Source of the DNA: Temperatibacter marinus
Lineage (GTDB): Bacteria; Pseudomonadota; Alphaproteobacteria; Sphingomonadales; Kordiimonadaceae
Assembly: GCF_031598375.1 (NCBI RefSeq)
Contig: NZ_CP123872.1
Coordinates: 434,001 to 498,000 of the forward strand
Length of the DNA: 64,000 nt
Direction: 5' to 3'
Shown: piece by piece, positions 39,247 to 58,560 of the stretch
Position numbering within the stretch: position 1 is the first letter of the stretch
Layout: each line of letters begins with the position of its first letter
Program-made: the position numbers and the translations under genes
Notes under the pieces: model-generated
What the model saw: only the letters and a program-made list of their open reading frames with translations
Database searches by the model: none
Told to the model about the DNA's origin: nothing

Positions 39247-40155
39247 ATGACTTTGGACTTCAATCACCCCCCATATCAACTGCAGAATGATACAGAACAT
39301 GCAGGTGAAATTCCGCTCATTCTAAGTATTCCTCATAGTGGCACTATATATCCAGAGGATATGACCACAAGGTCCCATCTCAAGACACCTGAGCTTAGAT
39401 CCTCTGAAGATGCTTTTGTTGGAGATCTTCTTGAGGCTGCGAGGTCACTGCCAGTCACAATGATCGAAGCTTCTTATGCAAGAGCCTATGTTGATTTAAA
39501 CAGAAAACCAACAGAGCTAGACTTTGCCATGTTTGACGGCGGCCTTACACAACAGATCGAAAGATCGAAAAATGTCCAGGCTGGCCTTGGCGTCATCCCA
39601 AAAATTGTCGGCAAGGCCCAATCAATTTACATGTCAAAAATTCCAGCCAATGAGGCCTCAGAAAGGTTGAATGCTGTCTACTACCCCTATCATCAATGTC
39701 TGCAGACCGAAATCCAGCGGCTCTATAAAAAGTTTGGGTGCCTCTACATTTTGGATTGTCATTCTATGCCCTCAATTCCAAACCGACTGAATAGAAGACG
39801 GAAAAGCCTCTCTGATATTGTTCTCGGCGACATCTGGGGCAAAACTTCTGACAGAAATCTGCTCAAAGTCATTGAAACAAGTTTTATAAACCAAGGCTAC
39901 TCCGTCTCTAGAAATACACCCTATGCCGGAGGTTTTATCACTAGAAATTACTGTGAGCCGGAGCATCATATTTATACTTTACAGCTTGAGTTGTGTCGGG
40001 ACCTTTATATGGATGAAGAGACAATAGAAAAAAATGCTAACTTCCCTCATCTCAAGTCAGACCTTGGACAGCTCCTGCATCTTATTTACGATCATATTCA
40101 CCAAGAAATTAACCAACCCCTTCACAAAATAAACCACCCCATAGCCGCAGAATAA
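39247..40155 (+). CDS. N-formylglutamate amidohydrolase family protein
   Basis: A 302-residue hydrolase. ILSIPHSGTIYPEDM, SSEDAFVGDLLEAA, YARAYVDLNRKPTELD, LDCHSMPSIP and NTPYAGGFITRNY are marks of the N-formylglutamate amidohydrolase (FGase/HutG-type) family, which cleaves N-formyl-L-glutamate to formate and glutamate in one route of histidine breakdown. The Zn-type ligands are probably the His of PHSG and of DCHS. No other hut gene is nearby, and relatives act on other N-acylated amino acids, so the substrate here is open. It follows the sulfotransferase by 16 bp. Confidence 0.85.
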   Translation: MTLDFNHPPYQLQNDTEHAGEIPLILSIPHSGTIYPEDMTTRSHLKTPELRSSEDAFVGDLLEAARSLPVTMIEASYARAYVDLNRKPTELDFAMFDGGLTQQIERSKNVQAGLGVIPKIVGKAQSIYMSKIPANEASERLNAVYYPYHQCLQTEIQRLYKKFGCLYILDCHSMPSIPNRLNRRRKSLSDIVLGDIWGKTSDRNLLKVIETSFINQGYSVSRNTPYAGGFITRNYCEPEHHIYTLQLELCRDLYMDEETIEKNANFPHLKSDLGQLLHLIYDHIHQEINQPLHKINHPIAAE

Positions 40156-40180
40156 AAAAAAGGGCCACACGAAGTGGCCC
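40154..40180 (-). terminator. Rho-independent terminator of the sRNA
   Basis: On the minus strand GGGCCAC-TTCGT-GTGGCCC is followed by eight T. Upstream on the same strand lie the candidate sRNA and, further back, rmlD. On the plus strand no T tract follows, so it does not serve the amidohydrolase. Confidence 0.9.
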
Positions 40181-40243
40181 AGGCTCAGGGAGGAAACGCC
40201 CACGGAGGGCATTAAAGGCATGAAGTCTACAACTCATGCCTCT
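40154..40243 (-). ncRNA. Candidate alpha-r8 / MmgR-family trans-acting sRNA
   Basis: On the minus strand a transcript of about 90 bases can be outlined. It has a first hairpin of 8 bp (40216-40241), a second small hairpin GCCC/GGGC (40198-40210), an unpaired TTTCCTCCCT (40187-40196), and the terminator hairpin with eight U. The ten-base UUUCCUCCCU in a single-stranded stretch is the defining motif of the alphaproteobacterial alpha-r8 family, known from Sinorhizobium MmgR, which limits polyhydroxybutyrate accumulation. The CCUCCC core could pair with Shine-Dalgarno sequences of target mRNAs. A promoter sits just upstream. The family match is from memory of the motif; the size and structure agree with it. 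Confidence 0.72.
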
Positions 40244-40247
40244 TATT

Positions 40248-40275
40248 AATATAACTATGACTTGCAGTTAATCAA
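40248..40275 (-). promoter_or_regulatory. Sigma-70-like promoter of the candidate sRNA
   Basis: On the minus strand TTGATT (40275-40270) and TATATT (40253-40248) are spaced by 16 bases. This places the transcription start near 40243, exactly at the base of the first sRNA hairpin. Confidence 0.65.
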
Positions 40276-40424: not shown

Positions 40425-41315
40425 TTAAGACTCAACAAGTTGATGAATGCATTTCTCTAAGGATTGTTCCCAATTGGGCAATCTGATGCCAAACGTGTCT
40501 TCTAATTTTTGACAGTTCAAGCAACTATTTTCTGGCCGTTTGGCAGGGGTCGGATAGTCCGCAGTTGTGATTGCGGAAACTTCAGGGATTTTATTGCTCG
40601 TCTTTTGAGAATACAATGCAAAAGTCTTGCAGGCAAGACCGAACCATGTGGTATCGCCCGTACCGGCAAGATGATAGAGGCCGCTATAGCTTGACTGCCA
40701 TCCGTTGTCAGTTATTTGTATTATAATTTTGAAAATAGCCTGCGCAATATCCAAAGCCGATGTAGGATTGCCTTTTTGATCAGCCACAATCCCCAGACTG
40801 TCTTTTATCTCAGCTAAGTTAAGCATGGTTTTTACAAAGTTTTTGCCAATCGCACTATAGACCCATGCTGTGCGTAGAATAATAACCTTGTCATGCGTGG
40901 CCAGTGCATCCTGCTCGCCTGCCAATTTTGAATGACCATAAATGCCTTGAGGGTTGGTTGGATCACTTTCTAAATAGCTGCCTTGCTTTTGCCCATCATA
41001 TACATAATCCGTGCTGACATGGATGAAAGGTATATCCAACACTTTAGCAGCCTCAGCCATTTGCCTGACTGCATGCTGGTTAACAGCATAGGCCTTCTTT
41101 TGATCTGTTTCCGCAGTATCAACCTGTGTATAGGCTGCCGCATTGACCAAAACGCTAGGCTTCTCTGCAAGGATTGCATCAAAAACCCCTTGCTCATCAA
41201 ATAGATCCACTTCTGGGCGGCCAATAGTATGACAGGCCAGACTAAAGTCAGGTGAAAGCTGATTTAAGGCTGAGGCCAGTTGACCTGTTTTTCCAACAAC
41301 TAACAGTTTAGTCAT
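40425..41315 (-). CDS. rmlD: dTDP-4-dehydrorhamnose reductase
   Basis: RmlD reduces dTDP-4-keto-rhamnose to dTDP-L-rhamnose, the last step of the pathway. The 296-residue protein has the NAD-binding loop [11 protein letters not shown], the [13 protein letters not shown] segment, [10 protein letters not shown] and the YGHSK active site, all typical. The ATG at 41315 overlaps the last 8 bases of rmlB; an in-frame upstream start at 41420 would lie far inside rmlB and is rejected. rmlA and rmlC, needed to make the substrate, are not in this window. Confidence 0.95.
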
Positions 41316-42360
41316 TTTTCTTAACAATTCCCTGGCGCTGACGAGAGACTTCCCTGAGAGGAGACCACCACCATTCATTGTCCAAGTACCATTGGATTGT
41401 CTTCTTAATACCCGTATCAAAATTACACGCGGCCTTCCAACCCAACTCTGTTTCTAATTTGGTTGCATCAATGGCATAGCGGGCGTCATGACCAGGACGA
41501 TCGGCTACAAATTCGATCAAATCTCTGCGCGGTGACTCCCCTGGAATTAATTCATCAAGAATATCACAGATGGTTGTTACGACTTCAAGGTTGGTGCGCT
41601 CATTGCGTCCGCCCACATTATATTTCTCACCCAAACGTCCTTTTGTCAGGATCAAATAGAGGGCCCTTGCATGATCATCAACATAAAGCCAATCTCTAAC
41701 ATTGGAGCCATCACCGTAAACCGGAAGCTTGCGCCCATCCATGGCATTCAAAATCACGAGAGGTATAAGTTTTTCAGGGAAATGATAAGGACCATAATTG
41801 TTTGAGCAATTGCTTATCACCACAGGTAAGCCATATGTTTCGCGCCATGCTAAGGCTAAGTGATCTGATGACGCTTTTGAAGCACTATACGGCGAAGAGG
41901 GGTCATAAGGTGTTTCTTCAGAAAAGAGGCCTTCTGCGCCTAGTTCACCGTAAACTTCGTCTGTGGAAACGTGAAGAAATCTAAACTGATCTTTCTTCTC
42001 ACCGGAAAGCGCATCGTAGTAGCTGCGAGCAGCCTCTAACAACTTAAAAGTTCCAACGATGTTGGTCATGATAAATTCTTCAGCACCAGTTATTGATTTA
42101 TCCACATGGCTTTCGGCCGCCAAGTGCATCACAGCATCAGGCTGATGCTGAGTAAAAATGCGGTTCAATTCTGCAAGGTCACAGATGTCCACTTTTTCGA
42201 AGATATAATTTTCATTATTCTCTATGACTTTGAGGCTGTCAGTATTACCGGCATAGGTCAATTTATCGACATTAATCACTGTCGCCTTGACCTCGCTCAC
42301 CAAATATCTACAAACCGCCGAACCAATAAATCCAGCGCCACCGGTTACAATAATTTTCAT
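41308..42360 (-). CDS. rmlB: dTDP-glucose 4,6-dehydratase
   Basis: RmlB converts dTDP-glucose to dTDP-4-keto-6-deoxyglucose, the common precursor of rhamnose and other deoxysugars. The 350-residue extended SDR has [41 protein letters not shown] with the catalytic Asp-Glu pair after Thr, [11 protein letters not shown] and [17 protein letters not shown]. It is the first gene of the rmlB-rmlD pair, which overlap by 8 bases. It supplies the sugar for the rhamnosyltransferase-like enzyme encoded at 59075. Confidence 0.96.
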
Positions 42361-42441: not shown

Positions 42442-44010
42442 CTAAATCTTTAATTCTGGATGCCTCTCATGAAGCTTTCGGGTCATTTCTTCTCGGCGCT
42501 CGAATAGCTCATAATAGACCGCAACTCGGTCTTTTATAAGAGCAGATTGAAGACGGTGCCCGATCGCATCCCAGGCTGACTTTGAAACAGCATGGAGTTG
42601 CTCTGGACTATTTAACAAAGCCATCAAAAGCTGAGTCCATTCTTCTTGAGACCGGGCAATGAAACCGTCAGTGCCATGATTAACTGTTTCCTGATAGATG
42701 CAAGGGGAGCCAATGAAAACTGTCGACGCATTAGAACATTCTTGAAACTTTAAATCTGTTTTACATTGTTCTGTCGGGGTCCCTTCTAGGGGAGACAGAC
42801 AAATATGGCAGCGTCTCAATAAATCTTTATATTCTTGGTAACTTAGATAATTATAAAGAGTAATTTTTTCCTCATAACGTTTAAGCGCCTTGTGTAATCC
42901 TGCATTATTCACAACATGAAGATGAACATGCTCGTGAGCCATGGCAGCTTCAAGCGCAGGTATAATTAGAGAGTTTGCATTATCACGATGCAGAGCAGCA
43001 ACAACAATATGAAGCTTATCAAGGGGCTTTTCTGCATAATGCTGCCGCTGATGAAGTGCATTAGGCATGAGATAAACATAAGGATGATGCTCTGATATCA
43101 CATCTTTCAGTCTCTGAGTTGAAACCTGTACGGCATGTTGTGAGGTCATAGGGTGCCATGGATTTGCATGCCACATTTCTACAATCCCCTCGGGCAGCAA
43201 GCCCGGATGGTCATCCCATTCAGCAATGGTCATCCAATTGTTTGCGTAAATGCGCTGCATCATTCGGGTATAACGTTCTCTGTCGGGAGCCAATTGCCGC
43301 TGAATAATCATTAATTTATTCTCAACGCTGGTTCTTGGTATTACAGTGGGTTTAATATGGTTCTGAGCACTAATATTAGGGATGGAATTAATGGCATCTA
43401 CCCAAGGTTTATACCGTGCAGTCATCATCGATTTGGCATAGACCATTTGGTGAGCATGGATGAGGGGTCTGCTTGGCTGCTTTTGCGCGACAAGGATACA
43501 ATTTTCAAACTTCTGAGATAAAGCGGAATTTGCCTGGATTGTTTTTTGTCGATAAAGATGCACCCCCTGCTTCTCAAGGAATTTTTTCATGCCGTCTATA
43601 TTGACGAAATGTCTAAATCTCACATCAGTTGATAAGCGCATGAGCGGTTTTTTACTGGCGCCCGCCTTTGGCTCTATAAGAAATTCAAAAAGCAGCGTTG
43701 TCTCTGCCTTTATTAAGGTCAATAGCCCTCTTATGAGTTTTTGAATCTCAACGGTAAATTCAAAAAGATGGCTTAAGATAATTGTATCGTATGAGGACAA
43801 GTCCAATGCAGAAAGGACGGCTAATAGCTCATCTTTTGACAGAATATCCTGATCATTCACATAGGCCGCAATTGAGAGACTGTCATAGACTACGGTAGGA
43901 TTAAGCATCCGATAAAGAGACGCAATATCTTCTTCCTCGTGGCTAATTTCCAATACTTTTTCAGCAGTCACAGGTATTTTACTAGCGATATATTTTTTTC
44001 TTTTACTCAT
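42442..44010 (-). CDS. Glycosyltransferase with methyltransferase-like N-terminus
   Basis: A 522-residue protein in two parts. The C-terminal half (about 330-500) looks like a GT-B/GT4 C-lobe: LHIVVAALHRDN, an acceptor-side EAAMAHEHVHLHVV, YLSYQEYKDLLRRCHICLSPL and DGFIARSQEEWTQLL. The N-terminal 160 residues read like a SAM-methyltransferase fold with YDTIILSHLFEF in the position of the usual DxVxxSHVLEH, but the glycine-rich SAM loop is lost (VLEISHEEE where VLEIGCGxG is expected). The N-part is therefore probably non-catalytic. Sugar and acceptor are unknown. It is leftward, upstream of rmlB, and divergent from manC. Confidence 0.65.
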   Translation of the reverse strand: MSKRKKYIASKIPVTAEKVLEISHEEEDIASLYRMLNPTVVYDSLSIAAYVNDQDILSKDELLAVLSALDLSSYDTIILSHLFEFTVEIQKLIRGLLTLIKAETTLLFEFLIEPKAGASKKPLMRLSTDVRFRHFVNIDGMKKFLEKQGVHLYRQKTIQANSALSQKFENCILVAQKQPSRPLIHAHQMVYAKSMMTARYKPWVDAINSIPNISAQNHIKPTVIPRTSVENKLMIIQRQLAPDRERYTRMMQRIYANNWMTIAEWDDHPGLLPEGIVEMWHANPWHPMTSQHAVQVSTQRLKDVISEHHPYVYLMPNALHQRQHYAEKPLDKLHIVVAALHRDNANSLIIPALEAAMAHEHVHLHVVNNAGLHKALKRYEEKITLYNYLSYQEYKDLLRRCHICLSPLEGTPTEQCKTDLKFQECSNASTVFIGSPCIYQETVNHGTDGFIARSQEEWTQLLMALLNSPEQLHAVSKSAWDAIGHRLQSALIKDRVAVYYELFERREEMTRKLHERHPELKI

Positions 44011-49180: not shown

Positions 49181-52100
49181 TTAGGTATATATAATGTGGC
49201 CGTCAGCACTCATCGAGACTAGATCAAAGTCGTCGATCTGATTTAAGGAAAGATAATTCCCATCACCGAGGTCAATCACACTACTATTATCCCCAGAGAC
49301 TGCACTCAGTAAATCCGACACATTATTTATCGTATCGATTTGAGAAAAATCTAGAATATCCTCATCCTCGTTAAGACCAATTATATGATCGAATCCATTC
49401 CCTTCTGTGATGACAAAGATATCACTTGCATGATCTGCACCTGTACCAAGCATATAATGATCATCTCCAGCATCGAGGACGAATTCCACACTAGCGCCAC
49501 CGCTTGTAGAGAAACTATCATCTCCGTTTCCACCGGTAACCCTATGATCAGAACCTCCGGTAATGGTGATGATATCGCCGTCAGCGCCGCCATCAACCTC
49601 AGCAGATCCTGCTGAGATTAGGAAGGTATCATGCCCTGAATCTCCATCTAACGTGTCATTGCCACTTGAAGAAACAATCAAATCATCACCTTCTCCACCA
49701 GAAAGAAAGTCATTTCCAGTGCCGCCATTCAAGGTATCAGCACCGCCAACACCGTAAATCAGGTCATTGTCAGCATTTCCGTACACAAGATCATCTCCGG
49801 AACCAGCCCACAATTCATCATCACCAGAGCCGCCGAGAACGGTGTCATTGCCGGCAGCACCGTAAACAACATCATCTCCTCCTTGAGCCACAATATAATC
49901 GTTACCTGATGCAGCACCAATGGTGTCGTCACCCCCTCCGGCCCAAACTGTATCTTGACCAGACCCTGCCCAGAGAACATCTCCGACATCTGAATCGTCA
50001 GAGCGTACTTCGCTCAGTTCAATGTCACCGTCATTGTCATCGTCGTTCCAATATCCGCTGACAATAAGATCATCGCCTTTAACGCCAAAGACAAAGTCTT
50101 TGTCAGCATCCGCACCATCATCATTAAAGACCATTCCATCAGATCGGGCTCCTGATGCGAAGATAGTGTCATCTCCTGCGCCGCCACCGATTGTATCTCT
50201 ACCATGGCCCCCATTGATAAGATCAGCATCTTCATCAATACAGTTATCAGAGGCTGCAGCAGCGAAAATCACGTCATTTCCATCACCGCCGTCAACAGTA
50301 TCTTCTCCGTCACCGTGACGAATAGCATCATTACCAGCACCGCCAATAATAAGATCATGACCCTCGTTACCGCGCAATACATCCATGCCATCTTCGCCCA
50401 TAAGGGTATCATCCCCGTAACCACCTGTCAGGCTATCTCTACCTGAGCCACCAATGAGCATATTGGCAAGGGAATTACCGCCTAGATATTCACCGTCTGG
50501 ATCTGTAACGACTGTGCGGGTCTCATCGGCATCAATGACCATGTCAACATTATGGAAGATGGTTTCTTTGCCAGAGCCTGCATCCGGGTCGATCAATTTC
50601 ACGGAAAGCTCTTCCGAACTATCATCAACGAGGTTAGACGAGCTCTCAAAAGGATCATAATCAATAGTATCTAAACTACCGTCATTATCCGTATCCAACA
50701 CTGTAAAGATCCCGTAAGCCCCTTCGATGGTGTCTCCGTTAGACAGGCCATCATAGGTGTCACCGTTCACTGTCACTTGATCAATGGTATAATCAAGACC
50801 CAGATCCGTCGCCGTTTGAATATGTCCGGCATCCGTCCCATCAGTGTTATAAAAGGCAAGGTCATCACTTGAATAGGTCCAGCGCGTGTCTGCACCGTCA
50901 TCTGAGACCATAGTACCGGTTTCACTGTCTACGGCCTCTGACAGAACGAGGGCTTGATCCGCCTCACCAAAAGTGATCTTGCCATTGATAAATTCAATGG
51001 TTTCAATGCCTTTGATTTGATCATTCCCTTCACTGGTGATGAGGTCTGCACAGTTATCACCATCCGCCCCGCCTGATTTGATAATACTGGTCGATGTATC
51101 AAGGAAATCTTCTACTTTAAGCGTATCATCGCCTGCGCCGCCTGAGATCAAATCATCACCTGCACCGCCTGAGAGACTGTCGTCCCCGTTCCCAGCGATC
51201 AGCGTATCATTGTCTGCACCGCCGGAAAGACTGTCAGAATCAGCACCCCCAACAAGACTGTCAGCCCCTGCACCGCCGAAGAGACTATCGTCACCGTTCC
51301 CAGCGATCAGCGTATCATTGTCTGCACCGCCTGTAAGGCTGTCGTCGCCGTCGCCGCCGAAGAGACTGTCATCCCCATTACCACCAGAGAGGCTATCATC
51401 GCCAATATTACCTTCTAGGGTGTCCTCTAGACCTCCCCCAATAAGAGCACCGCCGTCTGGATCTGTTACTGTGCGGGCCTCATCGGCATCAATGACCATG
51501 TCAACATTATGGAAGATGGTTTCTTTGCCAGAGCTTGCATCCGGGTCGATCAATTTCACGGAAAGCTCTTCCGAACTATCATCAACGAGGTTAGACGAGC
51601 TCTCAAAAGGATCATAATCAATAGTATCTAAACTACCGTCATTATCCGTATCCAACACTGTAAAGATCCCGTAAGCCCCTTCGATGGTGTCTCCGTTAGA
51701 CAGGCCATCATAGGTGTCACCGTTCACTGTCACTTGATCAATGGTATAATCAAGACCCAGATCCGTCGCCGTTTGAATATGTCCGGCATCCGTCCCATCA
51801 GTGTTATAAAAGGCAAGGTCATCACTTGAATAGGTCCAGCGCGTGTCTGCACCGTCATCTGAGACCATAGTACCGGTTTCACTGTCTACGGCCTCTGATA
51901 GAACCAGAGCTTGATCCGCCTCACCAAAAGTGATCTTGCCATTGATAAATTCAATGGTTTCAATGCCTTTGATTTGATCATTCCCTTCACTGGTGATGAG
52001 GTCTGCACAGTTATCACCATCCGCCCCGCCTGATTTGATAATACTGGTCGATGTATCAAGGAAATCTTCTACTTTAAGCGTATCATCGCCTGCGCCGCCT

Positions 52101-54865
52101 GAGATCAAATCATCACCTGCACCGCCTGAGAGACTGTCGTCCCCGTTCCCAGCGATCAGCGTATCATTGTCTGCACCGCCGGAAAGACTGTCAGAATCAG
52201 CACCCCCAACAAGACTGTCAGCGCCTGCACCGCCGAAGAGACTATCGTCACCGTTCCCAGCGATCAGCGTATCATTGTCTGCACCGCCTGTAAGGCTGTC
52301 GTCGCCGTCGCCGCCGAAGAGACTGTCATCCCCATTACCACCAGAGAGGCTATCATCGCCAATATTACCTTCTAGGGTGTCCTCTAGACCTCCCCCAATA
52401 AGAGCACCGCCGTCTGGATCTGTTACTGTGCGGGCCTCATCGGCATCAATGACCATGTCAACATTATGGAAGATGGTTTCTTTGCCAGAGCTTGCATCCG
52501 GGTCGATCAATTTCACGGAAAGCTCTTCCGAACTATCATCAACGAGGTTAGACGAGCTCTCAAAAGGATCATAATCAATAGTATCTAAACTACCGTCATT
52601 ATCCGTATCCAACACTGTAAAGATCCCGTAAGCCCCTTCGATGGTGTCTCCGTTAGACAGGCCATCATAGGTGTCACCGTTCACTGTCACTTGATCAATG
52701 GTATAATCAAGACCCAGATCCGTCGCCGTTTGAATATGTCCGGCATCCGTCCCATCAGTGTTATAAAAGGCAAGGTCATCACTTGAATAGGTCCAGCGCG
52801 TGTCTGCACCGTCATCTGAGACCATAGTACCGGTTTCACTGTCTACGGCCTCTGATAGAACCAGAGCTTGATCCGCCTCACCAAAAGTGATCTTGCCATT
52901 TAAGAATTGGATAACTTCAACACTATGAATACTATCCCTCCCATCCTCTGTGATGATGTCCGCGCAATTATCTCCTGCTGATCCCCCTTTTCTCAGTATA
53001 TCACTCGCGTCATCCAGTATATCATTGATAAAGAGTGTATCTAAACCGTCCCCCCCAAAAACAGTATCATCACCGCAGCCTGCGAGGATGGAATCGTCAT
53101 CTGATCCCCCTGAAATATAATCATTATTGTTCCCACCAGAGAGTGTATTAGAGCCAGAGCTCTCAAATATATAATCTGTGCCAGAACCACCTTCTACTAG
53201 GTCATCACCCTGTCCAGAGCTGATCGTATCTTTTCCAGTCCCCCCATATAGAGTGTCATTTCCCGAACTGGCAGTAATTCTATCGTTACCAGCCTCACCA
53301 TAAATAAGATTATCCCCAGAATTCCCACTTACGGTGTCATTTCCCTCACCCCCATAAATAGTGTCATCATGAGAACCGCCATCAAGATAATCATCGCCGT
53401 TGCCTCCATAAATTAAGTCATTATTAGCCTGACCATATATGAAGTCGCTATTGGCGCCGCCGTAGAGGCTGTCATCCCCTTCTCCCCCATTCAGATAGTC
53501 TCGCCCTTCCTGACCAAAGGCCTCATCAACACCATCATCTCCGTCAAAACGATCATCCCCTAATCCGCCGATAAAGGTATCATCCCCTTCATTTCCGGCC
53601 GCAGTATCATCGCCGTTACCACCAAGGATATGATCGTCCCCACTGCCGCCAAGAAGGCTATCATCTCCGTTACCCCCAGAAAGTGTATCGTCTAAATTGC
53701 CGCCCGCTAAAGTATCGTCTCCGCTGCCGCCAATGAGGCTGTCTTCACCATTTCCCCCTGAAATAAGATCGTCCCCCCCGCGACCACCTAAAGTATCAGG
53801 GCCATTCCCGCCGTATAGGGTATCAGCCACATCAGTACCGCCGAGACTATCTCCGGCAGGATTAGAGACAGTGAAAGTGTGAATAGGGTGATTCACCACA
53901 TCAAAATTATGAAAAATTGTTTCTTTACCAGCCCCAGCATCAGCATCAAAAAATCTTATGGAAAGTTCATCTGACTCGTCTTCCAAAAGGTTGACAGCAT
54001 TCTCGTCAGCATCATAGTCAATAGTATCTAACGTACCGTCTTGATCAGCATCTATAACAGTGTATGTCCCATGGGAACCTGCTATGGTATCACCGTTTGA
54101 AAGACTGTCATAACTTATGCCGTTTACATTGATTTGATCTATCGAATATTTAAGGCCTAAATCATGCGCGGTTTGCAGGTTTCCAGCATCCGAGCCATCT
54201 GAATTGTAAAAAGCGAGATCATCTTCAGTATATGTCCAACGTAGGTCTTGCGCCGATTCTGAGATAAGATTCCCTGTTTCGCTGTCTATACAACTGGAAA
54301 CAACAAAGGCTTGATCGGCCTCTCCAAAATTAAGGGCCCCATTTGAAAACTCGATTGTTTCAATGTTAGAAATTTTATCTAGACCATAATCAGTATCAAG
54401 ATCAACACAGTTGTCTCCTGATGCTCCCCCCTTTTTGGTCAGAACACTATTTGAATCTAAGACATCTGCGACTGTAATGGTATCTTCACCATCGCCCCCG
54501 TCAATAAAATCGTCCCCATTACTTGCATAGATGAAATCGTAATTGGCCTCTGCATAAACAGTATCTGCGCCGTCGCCCCCATTTATGGTATCGCTTCCTT
54601 CACCGCCGAAAATATGATCATCGCCGGCATCACCAGATAACGTATCACTGCCACCGCCCCCTAGGAGTTCATCGTCATTATTTCCTCCGACAAGAGTATC
54701 GTCCCCATTGCCCCCGTTAAGTGTATCATTACCATCACCCCCTTCTAATAAATCCTGACCATCTAAGCCAGTTAAGCTATCATCCCCTCCATACCCACGG
54801 AGGTGATCATTCGATAAGCCACCTGTGATGTCATTATTGCCATTAGTACCGAACATACTCACCAT
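49181..54865 (-). CDS. Giant RTX calcium-binding repeat protein
   Basis: A 1894-residue acidic protein made mostly of RTX nonapeptides (GGxGxDxLx; for example GGNGDDTL and GGSGDDTL), which bind Ca2+ as a beta-roll after export. There is no Sec signal; the C-terminus (ILDFSQIDTINN to the end) has the aliphatic-rich, non-cleaved form of type I secretion signals. Four copies of an unnamed module of about 215 residues interrupt the RTX blocks, and copies 2-4 sit in an almost exact 957-bp tandem repeat. The C-terminal half matches the 1049-residue paralog encoded at 55411. No enzymatic domain was recognised. Likely role: adhesin, S-layer-like or matrix protein. No type I secretion genes are nearby. 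GGAG at 54877-54874 supports the start. Confidence 0.9.
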   Translation of the reverse strand: MVSMFGTNGNNDITGGLSNDHLRGYGGDDSLTGLDGQDLLEGGDGNDTLNGGNGDDTLVGGNNDDELLGGGGSDTLSGDAGDDHIFGGEGSDTINGGDGADTVYAEANYDFIYASNGDDFIDGGDGEDTITVADVLDSNSVLTKKGGASGDNCVDLDTDYGLDKISNIETIEFSNGALNFGEADQAFVVSSCIDSETGNLISESAQDLRWTYTEDDLAFYNSDGSDAGNLQTAHDLGLKYSIDQINVNGISYDSLSNGDTIAGSHGTYTVIDADQDGTLDTIDYDADENAVNLLEDESDELSIRFFDADAGAGKETIFHNFDVVNHPIHTFTVSNPAGDSLGGTDVADTLYGGNGPDTLGGRGGDDLISGGNGEDSLIGGSGDDTLAGGNLDDTLSGGNGDDSLLGGSGDDHILGGNGDDTAAGNEGDDTFIGGLGDDRFDGDDGVDEAFGQEGRDYLNGGEGDDSLYGGANSDFIYGQANNDLIYGGNGDDYLDGGSHDDTIYGGEGNDTVSGNSGDNLIYGEAGNDRITASSGNDTLYGGTGKDTISSGQGDDLVEGGSGTDYIFESSGSNTLSGGNNNDYISGGSDDDSILAGCGDDTVFGGDGLDTLFINDILDDASDILRKGGSAGDNCADIITEDGRDSIHSVEVIQFLNGKITFGEADQALVLSEAVDSETGTMVSDDGADTRWTYSSDDLAFYNTDGTDAGHIQTATDLGLDYTIDQVTVNGDTYDGLSNGDTIEGAYGIFTVLDTDNDGSLDTIDYDPFESSSNLVDDSSEELSVKLIDPDASSGKETIFHNVDMVIDADEARTVTDPDGGALIGGGLEDTLEGNIGDDSLSGGNGDDSLFGGDGDDSLTGGADNDTLIAGNGDDSLFGGAGADSLVGGADSDSLSGGADNDTLIAGNGDDSLSGGAGDDLISGGAGDDTLKVEDFLDTSTSIIKSGGADGDNCADLITSEGNDQIKGIETIEFINGKITFGEADQALVLSEAVDSETGTMVSDDGADTRWTYSSDDLAFYNTDGTDAGHIQTATDLGLDYTIDQVTVNGDTYDGLSNGDTIEGAYGIFTVLDTDNDGSLDTIDYDPFESSSNLVDDSSEELSVKLIDPDASSGKETIFHNVDMVIDADEARTVTDPDGGALIGGGLEDTLEGNIGDDSLSGGNGDDSLFGGDGDDSLTGGADNDTLIAGNGDDSLFGGAGADSLVGGADSDSLSGGADNDTLIAGNGDDSLSGGAGDDLISGGAGDDTLKVEDFLDTSTSIIKSGGADGDNCADLITSEGNDQIKGIETIEFINGKITFGEADQALVLSEAVDSETGTMVSDDGADTRWTYSSDDLAFYNTDGTDAGHIQTATDLGLDYTIDQVTVNGDTYDGLSNGDTIEGAYGIFTVLDTDNDGSLDTIDYDPFESSSNLVDDSSEELSVKLIDPDAGSGKETIFHNVDMVIDADETRTVVTDPDGEYLGGNSLANMLIGGSGRDSLTGGYGDDTLMGEDGMDVLRGNEGHDLIIGGAGNDAIRHGDGEDTVDGGDGNDVIFAAAASDNCIDEDADLINGGHGRDTIGGGAGDDTIFASGARSDGMVFNDDGADADKDFVFGVKGDDLIVSGYWNDDDNDGDIELSEVRSDDSDVGDVLWAGSGQDTVWAGGGDDTIGAASGNDYIVAQGGDDVVYGAAGNDTVLGGSGDDELWAGSGDDLVYGNADNDLIYGVGGADTLNGGTGNDFLSGGEGDDLIVSSSGNDTLDGDSGHDTFLISAGSAEVDGGADGDIITITGGSDHRVTGGNGDDSFSTSGGASVEFVLDAGDDHYMLGTGADHASDIFVITEGNGFDHIIGLNEDEDILDFSQIDTINNVSDLLSAVSGDNSSVIDLGDGNYLSLNQIDDFDLVSMSADGHIIYT
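50491..51131 (-). other. RTX-protein module, copy 4
   Basis: Encodes the segment from KVEDFLD through GDNCADL, FGEADQALVLSEAVDSETG and TWTYSS-like TRWTYSSDDLAFYN to TVVTDPDGE. It differs from copy 3 by few residues, including an extra Val near its end. Confidence 0.75.
50512..52900 (-). repeat. 957-bp tandem repeat, about 2.5 copies, inside the large RTX gene
   Basis: Sequence x matches sequence x+957 from about 50512 to 51943 with only a few base changes. The shared antisense stretch at 51036 and 51993 is identical over 582 bases. The period is 319 codons, so the reading frame is kept. Near identity indicates recent duplication or ongoing gene conversion. Confidence 0.95.
51448..52088 (-). 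other. RTX-protein module, copy 3
   Basis: The central, fully tandem copy, flanked on both sides by identical RTX blocks. It carries the conserved Cys in GGADGDNCADL. Confidence 0.75.
52405..53045 (-). other. RTX-protein module, copy 2
   Basis: The C-terminal part is identical to copies 3 and 4, while the first 48 codons (FINDILDDASDILRKGG, VEVIQFLNGK) diverge. The tandem repeat therefore ends inside this module, at about 52900. Confidence 0.75.
53834..54481 (-). other. RTX-protein module, copy 1 (divergent)
   Basis: Residues 129-344 of the large RTX protein: TVADVLDSNSVLTKKGG, GDNCVDLDTDYG, DLRWTYTEDDLAFYN and KETIFHNFDVV. It keeps the Cys of GDNC (C153) and has a second Cys (C192) that the other copies lack. 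Confidence 0.75.
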
Positions 54866-55410: not shown

Positions 55411-58400
55411 TTAGAATGTGATCTGGTCGTTGATGCTCATTGAGATCAAGTCTGATTCATCGATATCGTTCAACAGTACATAGTTACCGTCGCCGAGATC
55501 AATCACAGCATTGTCGTTTCCAGATGTAGCGTCAAGAAGATCAGCAAGGCTGTTAATGCTATCGATTGAAGAGAAGTCTAGGACATCTTCATCAGCATTG
55601 AAGCCTGTAACTTCATCAACACCACTGTCTTCAATGAAGACAAATGTATCAACACCGTGATCACCTTTAGTTCCAAGTGTGTAGGTGTCGTTACCAGCAT
55701 CTGTTGTGAAGGTAGCTGTACCACCACCAGATGTTGTGAACGTATCGGCACCAGCGCCACCAGTTACTGTGTGGTCATCACCACCAGTGATGTTGATTGT
55801 ATCATCATTAGCACCGCCGTCGATGTCAGAAGTACCTGCAGATACATTGAATGTATCATCACCAGCACCACCATCAAGGTCGTCGTTACCGCTAGATGAA
55901 TTGATCTCATCATCACCTTCGCCACCAGAAACAACGTCATTTCCAGCACCACCGTCTAGAGTATCGTCACCGGCATCACCGTCGACAGTATCCATGCCTG
56001 CACCGCCGTCGATGTCATCATTCGCCGCGCCACCAGAAACATCATCGTTTCCTGTACCTGCGTCGATTGAGTCAGCACCTTCGCCGCCCCAGATTTCATC
56101 GATACCAGAACCACCAGTAATAGTGTCAGCACCTGTACCACCAACAATGGTATCATCGCCTGAACCACCATCGATTGTGTCAGCACCTGCACCACCGTCT
56201 AGGTCGTCGTTGCCAGCACCACCAAGGAGGGTGTCAGCGCCTTCGCCACCAGAAAGTGAATCACCACCGTCGTTACCTTCGATGTCGTCGTTACCAGCGC
56301 CGCCACTTACAGTGTCATCACCAGAACCGCCGAGGACTTCGTCGTTACCGTCGCCGCCCATGATATCGTCGTTACCGCCGTTACCTTCGATGTAATCATC
56401 ACATGATCCACCGTCGATTACGTCGCCACCAGCGTTACCGTAAAGCGAGTCAGCACCTTCTAGACCGTTGATAGTATCATTACCATCACCACCGATTACA
56501 GAGTCAGCGCCTGTACCAGCCCAGATCTCATCGTCACCGTCGCCACCATAAACTGTATCTGCACCAGCAGCAGCGTAAACTACATCGTTACCGCCTTGAG
56601 CATATACGAGGTCATCATTGGCACCAGCACCGATTGTATCATCGCCGCCACCAGCATAGACTGTGTCATCACCGTCACCGGCCCATAGTACATCACCAGC
56701 ATCTGTTGCGTTTGAGCGCACTTCAGATAGTTCAACGTCTTGCTCGCCGTTGTTATCATCATCGTTCCAGTAACCACCAACGAGTAGATCGTCACCTTCA
56801 GCGCCAAAGATAAAGTCTTTTTCACCGTCGTTGCCAGCATCTTGGAATTGGTCGCCATTAGCACCAGAAGCAAAGATAGTATCGTTACCATCACCACCAC
56901 CGATAGTGTCTTTACCGTCACCACCGTTGATAAGGTCAGCGTCTTCGTCAACACAGTTATCAGATGAAGCAGCAGCAAAGATCACATCATCGCCGTCACC
57001 GCCATCAACTGTATCAGCACCGTCACCGTGACGGATAGCATCGTTACCTGCACCACCATTAATAACGTCATCACCTTCGTTACCACGAAGAACGTCATTA
57101 CCAGCACCACCTGTCATTGTATCCGCAGCAGCACCACCTGTTAGAGTGTCATCGCCAGCATCACCAACAAGGCTATCTGCGCTATCGCCGCCTTCAAGTG
57201 CACCACCAGTTGAATCTAGAACAACTTGTGTCGTATCAGCGTCGATTAGAACATCAACATTGTGGAAGATTGTCGACTGAGCAGGATCCGCATCGTTATT
57301 AGAGAAACGAATTGAAAGTTCTTCAGTTTGGTCTGAAGACAAGTTCACTGCATCCGCATCTGTGTTGTACCAGATAGAATCAAGTGTACCATCTTTGTCA
57401 TCATCACGAACTGTGAATGTACCATGCTCACCGGCGATTGTATCACCACAAGAAAGACTATCGTATGTTGTACCGTTCACAATGACCTGATCGATGTTAT
57501 AAGAATAACCAAGATCGTCTGCTGTTGCTACATCATTACCGGCCTGACCATCAGTGTTAAAGAACGCAAGTTCTGAACCTGAGTAATCCCAAGCAATGTC
57601 AGCACCATCAGTAGATACATAATTACCTGTAGAATCGTCATAATCGCCATCTGTTTCAGCAACAAAATCCTGATTACCTTCACCGAAGTTGATTGTAACG
57701 TTTGTAAACTCAATGCTATCAACGTTACCAATTGTATCTGTACCTTCAGATGTGGTTAGGTCATAACAGTTAAAGTTACTAGCACCACCATTTGGTGTTA
57801 GATCGGCATTTGAATTGAATACGTCTGCAACTGTAAGCGTATCATCACCAGCGCCACCGTAGATTTCATCATCTCCAGCACCACCCATAAGGTCGTCATT
57901 ACCGTCACCACCGAGAATGGTATCATCACAACCACCACCAGAGATCGTATCGTTATTCCAACCACCGACAAGACTATCTGCACCAGCGCCGCCAGTGATA
58001 GAGTCATCACCGTTACCGCCTGAGATCGTATCATCGCCGCCCATACCTGACAGAACGTCATCATCATTGCCGCCGAAGATGTTATCTGCACATGCACTAC
58101 CAGTAATGGTGTCATTGTCGTCGTTACCATAGGCTGTGTCGCCGTCAGCACCACCAGAGAGAGTGATTGTATCATCACCTGCACCGCCGGCCGCAATGTT
58201 AGAGCCTGTACCAGCACCAGTAGTCAGACTATCGTCGCCTGCGCCACCGATAAGTGTATCGTCGCCGTCGCCGCCCATGATTGTATCATCATCTGTATTA
58301 CCAAGGAGCTGGTCATCGCCGGCACCGCCGTCAATGTAATCAGCACCAGAGCCACCATCTACAGTGTCATTATCTTTACCGCCGCGCACTGTATCAGCAC

Positions 58401-58560
58401 CTGCACCAGCTTCGATATTATCAGTTCCACTACCACCGATTAGGGTATCAGCACCCCCACCGCCAGATAGTACATCATTACCGCCGCTACCGTTTAGGGT
58501 ATCGTCGCCAGAACTACCGAGCAGGGTATCATTGCCACTTGTTCCAAATAAATCAGCCAT
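55411..58560 (-). CDS. RTX calcium-binding repeat protein
   Basis: A 1049-residue acidic protein, dominated by RTX nonapeptides ([16 protein letters not shown]). It begins [18 protein letters not shown] without a signal peptide and ends in a type I-like secretion tail ([20 protein letters not shown]). One copy of the unnamed module lies at 57187-57845. The C-terminal region around [11 protein letters not shown] and [20 protein letters not shown] matches the larger paralog. Glycine codons are mostly GGT/GGC and a perfect AGGAGG (58574-58569) precedes the start, both signs of high expression. Probably a Ca2+-dependent surface or matrix protein; no catalytic domain was seen. Confidence 0.9.
57187..57845 (-). 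other. RTX-protein module, copy in the smaller RTX protein
   Basis: [58 protein letters not shown] and [15 protein letters not shown] match the modules of the larger protein. The Cys after Asn is kept although the preceding GD is replaced. Confidence 0.75.

Follow-up and report, generated by a model that had tools for sequence, protein, structure and literature searches.

The alpha-r8 small RNAs (Rfam RF00519, suhB, described in Rfam as 'Makes More Granules Regulator') are present in nearly all Alphaproteobacteria, and functional studies of them are limited to two species. In Sinorhizobium meliloti, MmgR limits PHB and phasins, its direct target being not known (PMC8401924, PMC7143759). In Caulobacter crescentus, SisA represses many mRNAs, including those of TonB receptors, via a 10-mer common to SisA-D, and this repression of many mRNAs through an anti-Shine-Dalgarno 10-mer is the best-documented mechanism of the family (PMC12559287). 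The gene for N-formylglutamate amidohydrolase (FGase) is the usual neighbour of the single-copy alpha-r8 gene in most species and of sisA in Caulobacter (PMC12559287). After carbon starvation, SisA-D are sponged by another RNA, CrfA, which lowers SisA about five-fold (PMC12559287). A sponge of alpha-r8 is known in this one species: in the open-access literature searched, CrfA has been described from Caulobacter alone.

Here we analysed a stretch of 64,000 nucleotides from the genome of Temperatibacter marinus (the window), on the minus strand of which the initial annotation had proposed a member of this family. The features at this place are listed below in positions of the window; coordinates with the prefix C1 refer to the genome.

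40154 to 40241, minus strand: alpha-r8 sRNA (RF00519 suhB/MmgR), about 88 nt as predicted, by Rfam score and fold
40248 to 40275, minus strand: predicted promoter of sigma70 type, with -35 TTGATT at 40275-40270, a 16-nt spacer and -10 TATATT at 40253-40248
40216 to 40241, minus strand: 5' stem-loop of 8 bp in the predicted fold, lying beyond the Rfam model
40195 to 40213, minus strand: second stem-loop (GCCC..GGGC), from the predicted fold and the Rfam structure line
40187 to 40196, minus strand: 10-mer UUUCCUCCCU, a conserved anti-Shine-Dalgarno sequence and predicted seed for targets and sponge, core of the family according to PMC12559287
40154 to 40180, minus strand: intrinsic terminator GGGCCAC-UUCGU-GUGGCCC plus U8, its 7-pair stem at 40180-40162 followed by eight T
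39247 to 40155, plus strand: FGase gene (PF05013, Pfam E 4.8e-63), convergent with the sRNA

The sole match to RF00519, or to any Rfam family, in the window was found by cmscan at 40147-40217 on the minus strand (53.7 bits, E 3e-8), above the RF00519 gathering score of 41 bits, which served as cut-off for alpha-r8 membership. No other place in the genome (3.18 Mb) gave an RF00519 match above this cut-off, and matches at E <= 0.01 were obtained in 59 of 60 related genomes. The assignment to the MmgR/alpha-r8 family made in the initial annotation is thus borne out by the covariance model; the promoter, the 8-bp 5' hairpin, the small second hairpin, the unpaired UUUCCUCCCU, the terminator with eight T and the length of about 90 bases that it had described were all recovered. 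The promoter, from which the sRNA is presumably transcribed, agrees with the consensus at 9 of 12 positions (consensus scan; sequence match only). In the predicted fold the 10-mer is single-stranded except for its first base and is preceded by a weak hairpin, and the fold of 40154-40241 as a whole (-37.3 kcal/mol, z -5.1) was equalled in stability by none of 200 shuffles. The 5' stem-loop is variable in sequence, yet its pairing is kept, with changes on both sides in three of the four counted pairs (17 same-family sequences). By Rfam score and predicted fold the feature is firmly identified as a new member of the known alpha-r8 family; taken by itself, it is an ordinary one.

The stop codon of the FGase gene shares 2 nt with the U-tract of the sRNA in a tail-to-tail arrangement, and a convergent FGase gene stands within 1.5 kb of the alpha-r8 sRNA in 14 of the 30 relatives' loci. 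The sRNA had also been described as lying downstream of rmlBD. Its position was given correctly, with rmlD and rmlB (40425-42360) upstream on the same strand, but this is not the informative context, which is the conserved, convergent FGase gene: rmlD beside the sRNA was absent from the other relatives' loci (30 examined), and the proximity of rmlBD is incidental. It should be mentioned that rmlB is adjoined by a gene for a 522-aa protein (42442-44010, minus strand) for which neither a Pfam match nor, by pattern search, a named relative was found. Further along the same strand, two very large repeat proteins of 1894 aa (49181-54865) and 1049 aa (55411-58560) are encoded, both rich in GGxGxDxLxGGxGDD-like calcium-binding repeats, the former with long, near-identical internal duplications.

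With regard to function, the feature would be an Hfq-class trans-acting sRNA; Hfq is encoded in the genome (111.6 bits), and dependence on it is presumed. Its single-stranded UUUCCUCCCU would pair with AGGGAGGAAA-like Shine-Dalgarno sites, block ribosome binding and so repress the corresponding mRNAs. Candidate targets come from pattern searches of the genome, where GGGAGGAA-N1..8-ATG occurs at 14 sites versus 4 for the reversed control; the number is little informative, since motifs of this kind occur naturally as Shine-Dalgarno sequences. Eight of the GGGAGGAA sites precede ORFs of more than 100 codons, including two TonB-receptor genes and one for an AbgT transporter. TonB-dependent receptors and the AbgT transporter are the best target candidates in this genome; net pairing energies of the sRNA with individual candidate mRNAs are weak, the best reaching -9 to -10 kcal/mol. 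That the sRNA chiefly limits PHB storage via phasins, like MmgR of S. meliloti, would agree with the identical family and with the over-accumulation of PHB, PhaP1 and PhaP2 in the MmgR mutant (PMC8401924). We nevertheless consider this quite unlikely, as MmgR is without a known direct target and the mRNAs controlled by the Caulobacter members are numerous and unrelated. The PHB/polysaccharide balance is only one documented alpha-r8 output, that of S. meliloti, and repression through Shine-Dalgarno pairing, by analogy with Caulobacter SisA, appears better supported than a role in PHB storage.

The exact 10-mer occurs at 14 sites of the genome, each of which was inspected. Besides the sRNA, a sibling and the sponge locus considered below, most of them lie inside genes or at a start codon. 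The sibling, at C1:3004288-3004355 on the plus strand (L127:1001-1068, also L002), scores 27.1 bits with RF00519, below the cut-off, but a strong terminator is present, and both a hairpin and UUUCCUCCCU have been retained; it probably represents a second, diverged alpha-r8 RNA. Most of the remaining weak RF00519 matches in the genome look like chance terminators and were set aside. Variants of the motif were seen elsewhere: in family f5 it has diverged (CCUCUCCC), reading AUCCUCUCCC in place of UUUCCUCCCU in L032 and L036. In Phenylobacterium (L333, L334) and Caulobacter (L301, L305), a candidate alpha-r8-like hairpin RNA with its own terminator stands beside DUF1467, at the place occupied by the sponge in other genomes, with the motif altered to GUUUUCCCCGAU or GUCUUCCCCGAC; this may possibly be an unrecognised branch of alpha-r8.

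A search for the complement of the 10-mer led to a second locus: one of the 14 exact sites has a longer match on the strand opposite to it.

C1:2799507-2799663 (L097:957-1113), plus strand: candidate sponge RNA, unannotated, between proS and DUF1467-mce-rnj
40174 to 40196 of the window, minus strand: segment of the sRNA complementary to the core of the candidate sponge at 22 of 23 positions

The candidate RNA contains GUGGCCCACGCUCAGGGAGGAAAC, followed by a terminator GCTGGACGC..GCGTCCAGC-T6; its core in this genome reads GUGGCCCACGCUCAGGGAGGAAA. According to BLAST, nearly every genome of the same family has such a second core-bearing place besides the alpha-r8 gene, and the 24 same-family loci found in this way show a conserved layout, in which a promoter-like TGACA-N17-TAnnTT is followed by the core and by a AAAGCAAGGC..GCCTTGCTTTTTT terminator. 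The flanks are likewise conserved: proS, pointing away from the candidate, stands on one side in 22 of 24 loci, and on the other side come DUF1467 and methylmalonyl-CoA epimerase (mce), both in 23 of 24, and then RNase J (rnj). Of these genes, DUF1467 was identified with Pfam, and the names proS, mce and rnj are those we presume from the sequences. Starting from the DUF1467 gene, the core was located by its place in 5 further same-family genomes, so that it is found between proS and DUF1467 in 29 of 30 genomes of the family (only G001 is without it), in five of the six other families of the order (f2, f4, f6, f7, f8) and in about ten other genomes of the class. At the corresponding place no matching core was found in family f5, where the alpha-r8 motif has diverged, or in Caulobacter and Phenylobacterium. 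No Rfam family matches the candidate, and no RNA at this place was found in the open-access literature searched. These observations point to an undescribed, conserved, CrfA-like candidate sponge for alpha-r8.

On the sRNA, the 22 of 23 pairing involves the 10-mer, the linker and the terminator's 5' arm, and its net energy, with structure accounted for, is -32.5 kcal/mol against -5.6 +/- 3.3 for random stretches. Among relatives, the linker and arm of the sRNA are matched by the core as follows: GAGCCUGGGCC with GGCCCACGCUC, GAACUUGGGCC with GGCCCAAGUUC, AAACUCGGGCC with GGCCCGAGUUU, AGACUUGGGCC with CCCAAGUCU, and GAACUUUGGCCAC with GUGGUCAAAGUUC. Matched sRNA and core form on average 20.6 of 23 pairs versus 19.5 when permuted (p < 1/5000, none of 5000 permutations reaching the observed value), figures that overstate independence because the genomes are related. 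The co-variation holds at the level of 15 family-level groups, and also when only the 31 genomes that lack an other-strand terminator at the locus are considered. A C-C mismatch in the duplex, at 40182 of the sRNA strand, is kept in 20 genomes though G on the sponge side would allow pairing; six relatives (G002, G004, G006, G007, G009, G028) carry the pairing G at this position.

Since the core contains AGGGAGGA, and an ATG follows 5 nt further in the genome studied here, the plus-strand RNA could be read as a separate mRNA regulator or as a small-protein mRNA with AGGGAGG as its Shine-Dalgarno site. The ORF in question consists of 2 codons only, relatives have no conserved start or frame after the core, and no conserved ORF was detected in the candidate; the small-ORF reading was rejected. 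A Shine-Dalgarno site would moreover not account for a complementarity that extends to the sRNA's linker and terminator arm and co-varies with them, and we regard a messenger or separate regulator of this kind as very improbable.

The opposite strand has to be considered as well. In several genomes of the class, L146 and L288, a true alpha-r8 gene is situated at the same place on the other strand, and in L280 and L296 terminators are present on both strands; complementarity there can therefore reflect shared descent and not pairing. On these grounds the core might be what is left of an inverted alpha-r8 paralog after decay and give no acting RNA, with the alpha-r8 sRNA alone being functional. 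This we hold to be unlikely, for the core of about 20 nt is near-invariant in 29 of 30 genomes despite diverging flanks, and the sponge strand has kept its own promoter (TGACA-N16..18-TAnnnT in 23 of 24 loci) and intrinsic terminator (46 of 48 loci), both as read from the sequences. The alpha-r8 strand, for its part, is without a terminator in all but a few loci, and mostly so in the family to which the window belongs. Changes in the core also preserve wobble pairs: of 26 deviations from the exact complement that face a G or U, 24 retain a G-U pair, counted over related and hence not independent genomes.

We favour an explanation in which a second RNA, transcribed from the proS-DUF1467 locus, would control the alpha-r8 sRNA. 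Pairing of its core GUGGCCCACGCUCAGGGAGGAAA with the sRNA would extend over 10-mer, linker and 5' terminator arm and thereby mask the seed. Hfq binding of sRNAs normally depends on the 3' stem, and the same pairing would open this stem, here that of the terminator. The sRNA would then be titrated or destabilised and its decay favoured, as CrfA does to SisA-D in Caulobacter, presumably upon some inducing signal. The minimum-energy folds of the candidate, looked at for display of the core in a G/A-rich stem-loop, vary among relatives. Family membership, conservation, complementarity, co-variation and the conserved promoter-like element and terminator of the sponge were all obtained by computation. 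Taken as a whole, the explanation of an Hfq-class alpha-r8 sRNA repressing via Shine-Dalgarno pairing and controlled in turn by a proS-DUF1467 sponge appears likely to us.

That the sponge originated on the strand opposite to an alpha-r8 copy would fit the features seen in other genomes of the class. We suggest, tentatively and at somewhat less than even chances, an old, class-wide antagonism, in which a proS-DUF1467 sponge born on the opposite strand has co-evolved with alpha-r8, covers its seed and opens its terminator stem. If so, Caulobacter CrfA would be a second solution, independently placed, and the antisense strand of a duplicated sRNA gene could be a source of sponges against that same sRNA. 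The sRNA-sponge pair matters more than the sRNA alone: with a conserved partner whose genomic position is fixed, regulation of alpha-r8 becomes accessible to direct tests across many genera.

Compared with the systems described so far, the sRNA of the window has in common with MmgR (SmelC689, S. meliloti; RF00519) the 10-mer UUUCCUCCCU, the upstream hairpin, the intrinsic terminator and the match to the covariance model, whereas its 5' stem-loop is unrelated in sequence and its linker and terminator sequence (GAGCC-UGGGCCAC) is that of its own lineage. With SisA (CCNA_R0014, C. crescentus) it shares the FGase-adjacent position and the core pairing with Shine-Dalgarno sites; the linker and terminator arm of the Caulobacter members differ, and Caulobacter has four siblings, in contrast to one strong member and the one diverged sibling found here. 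Caulobacter crfA (CCNA_R0093) itself was not located by a search with the exact complement of the 10-mer. Like the candidate sponge, CrfA is a separate gene with an AG-rich segment complementary to the alpha-r8 10-mer; the pairing of the candidate, however, continues through the linker into the terminator arm, over about 23 nt, and its gene is found between proS and DUF1467, a place at which Caulobacter shows no comparable core. A more distant parallel is QrrX of Vibrio, a sponge of the Qrr sibling sRNAs: the RNAs are unrelated and the bacterial class is different, but in both cases a conserved sRNA family would be faced by a dedicated RNA antagonist.
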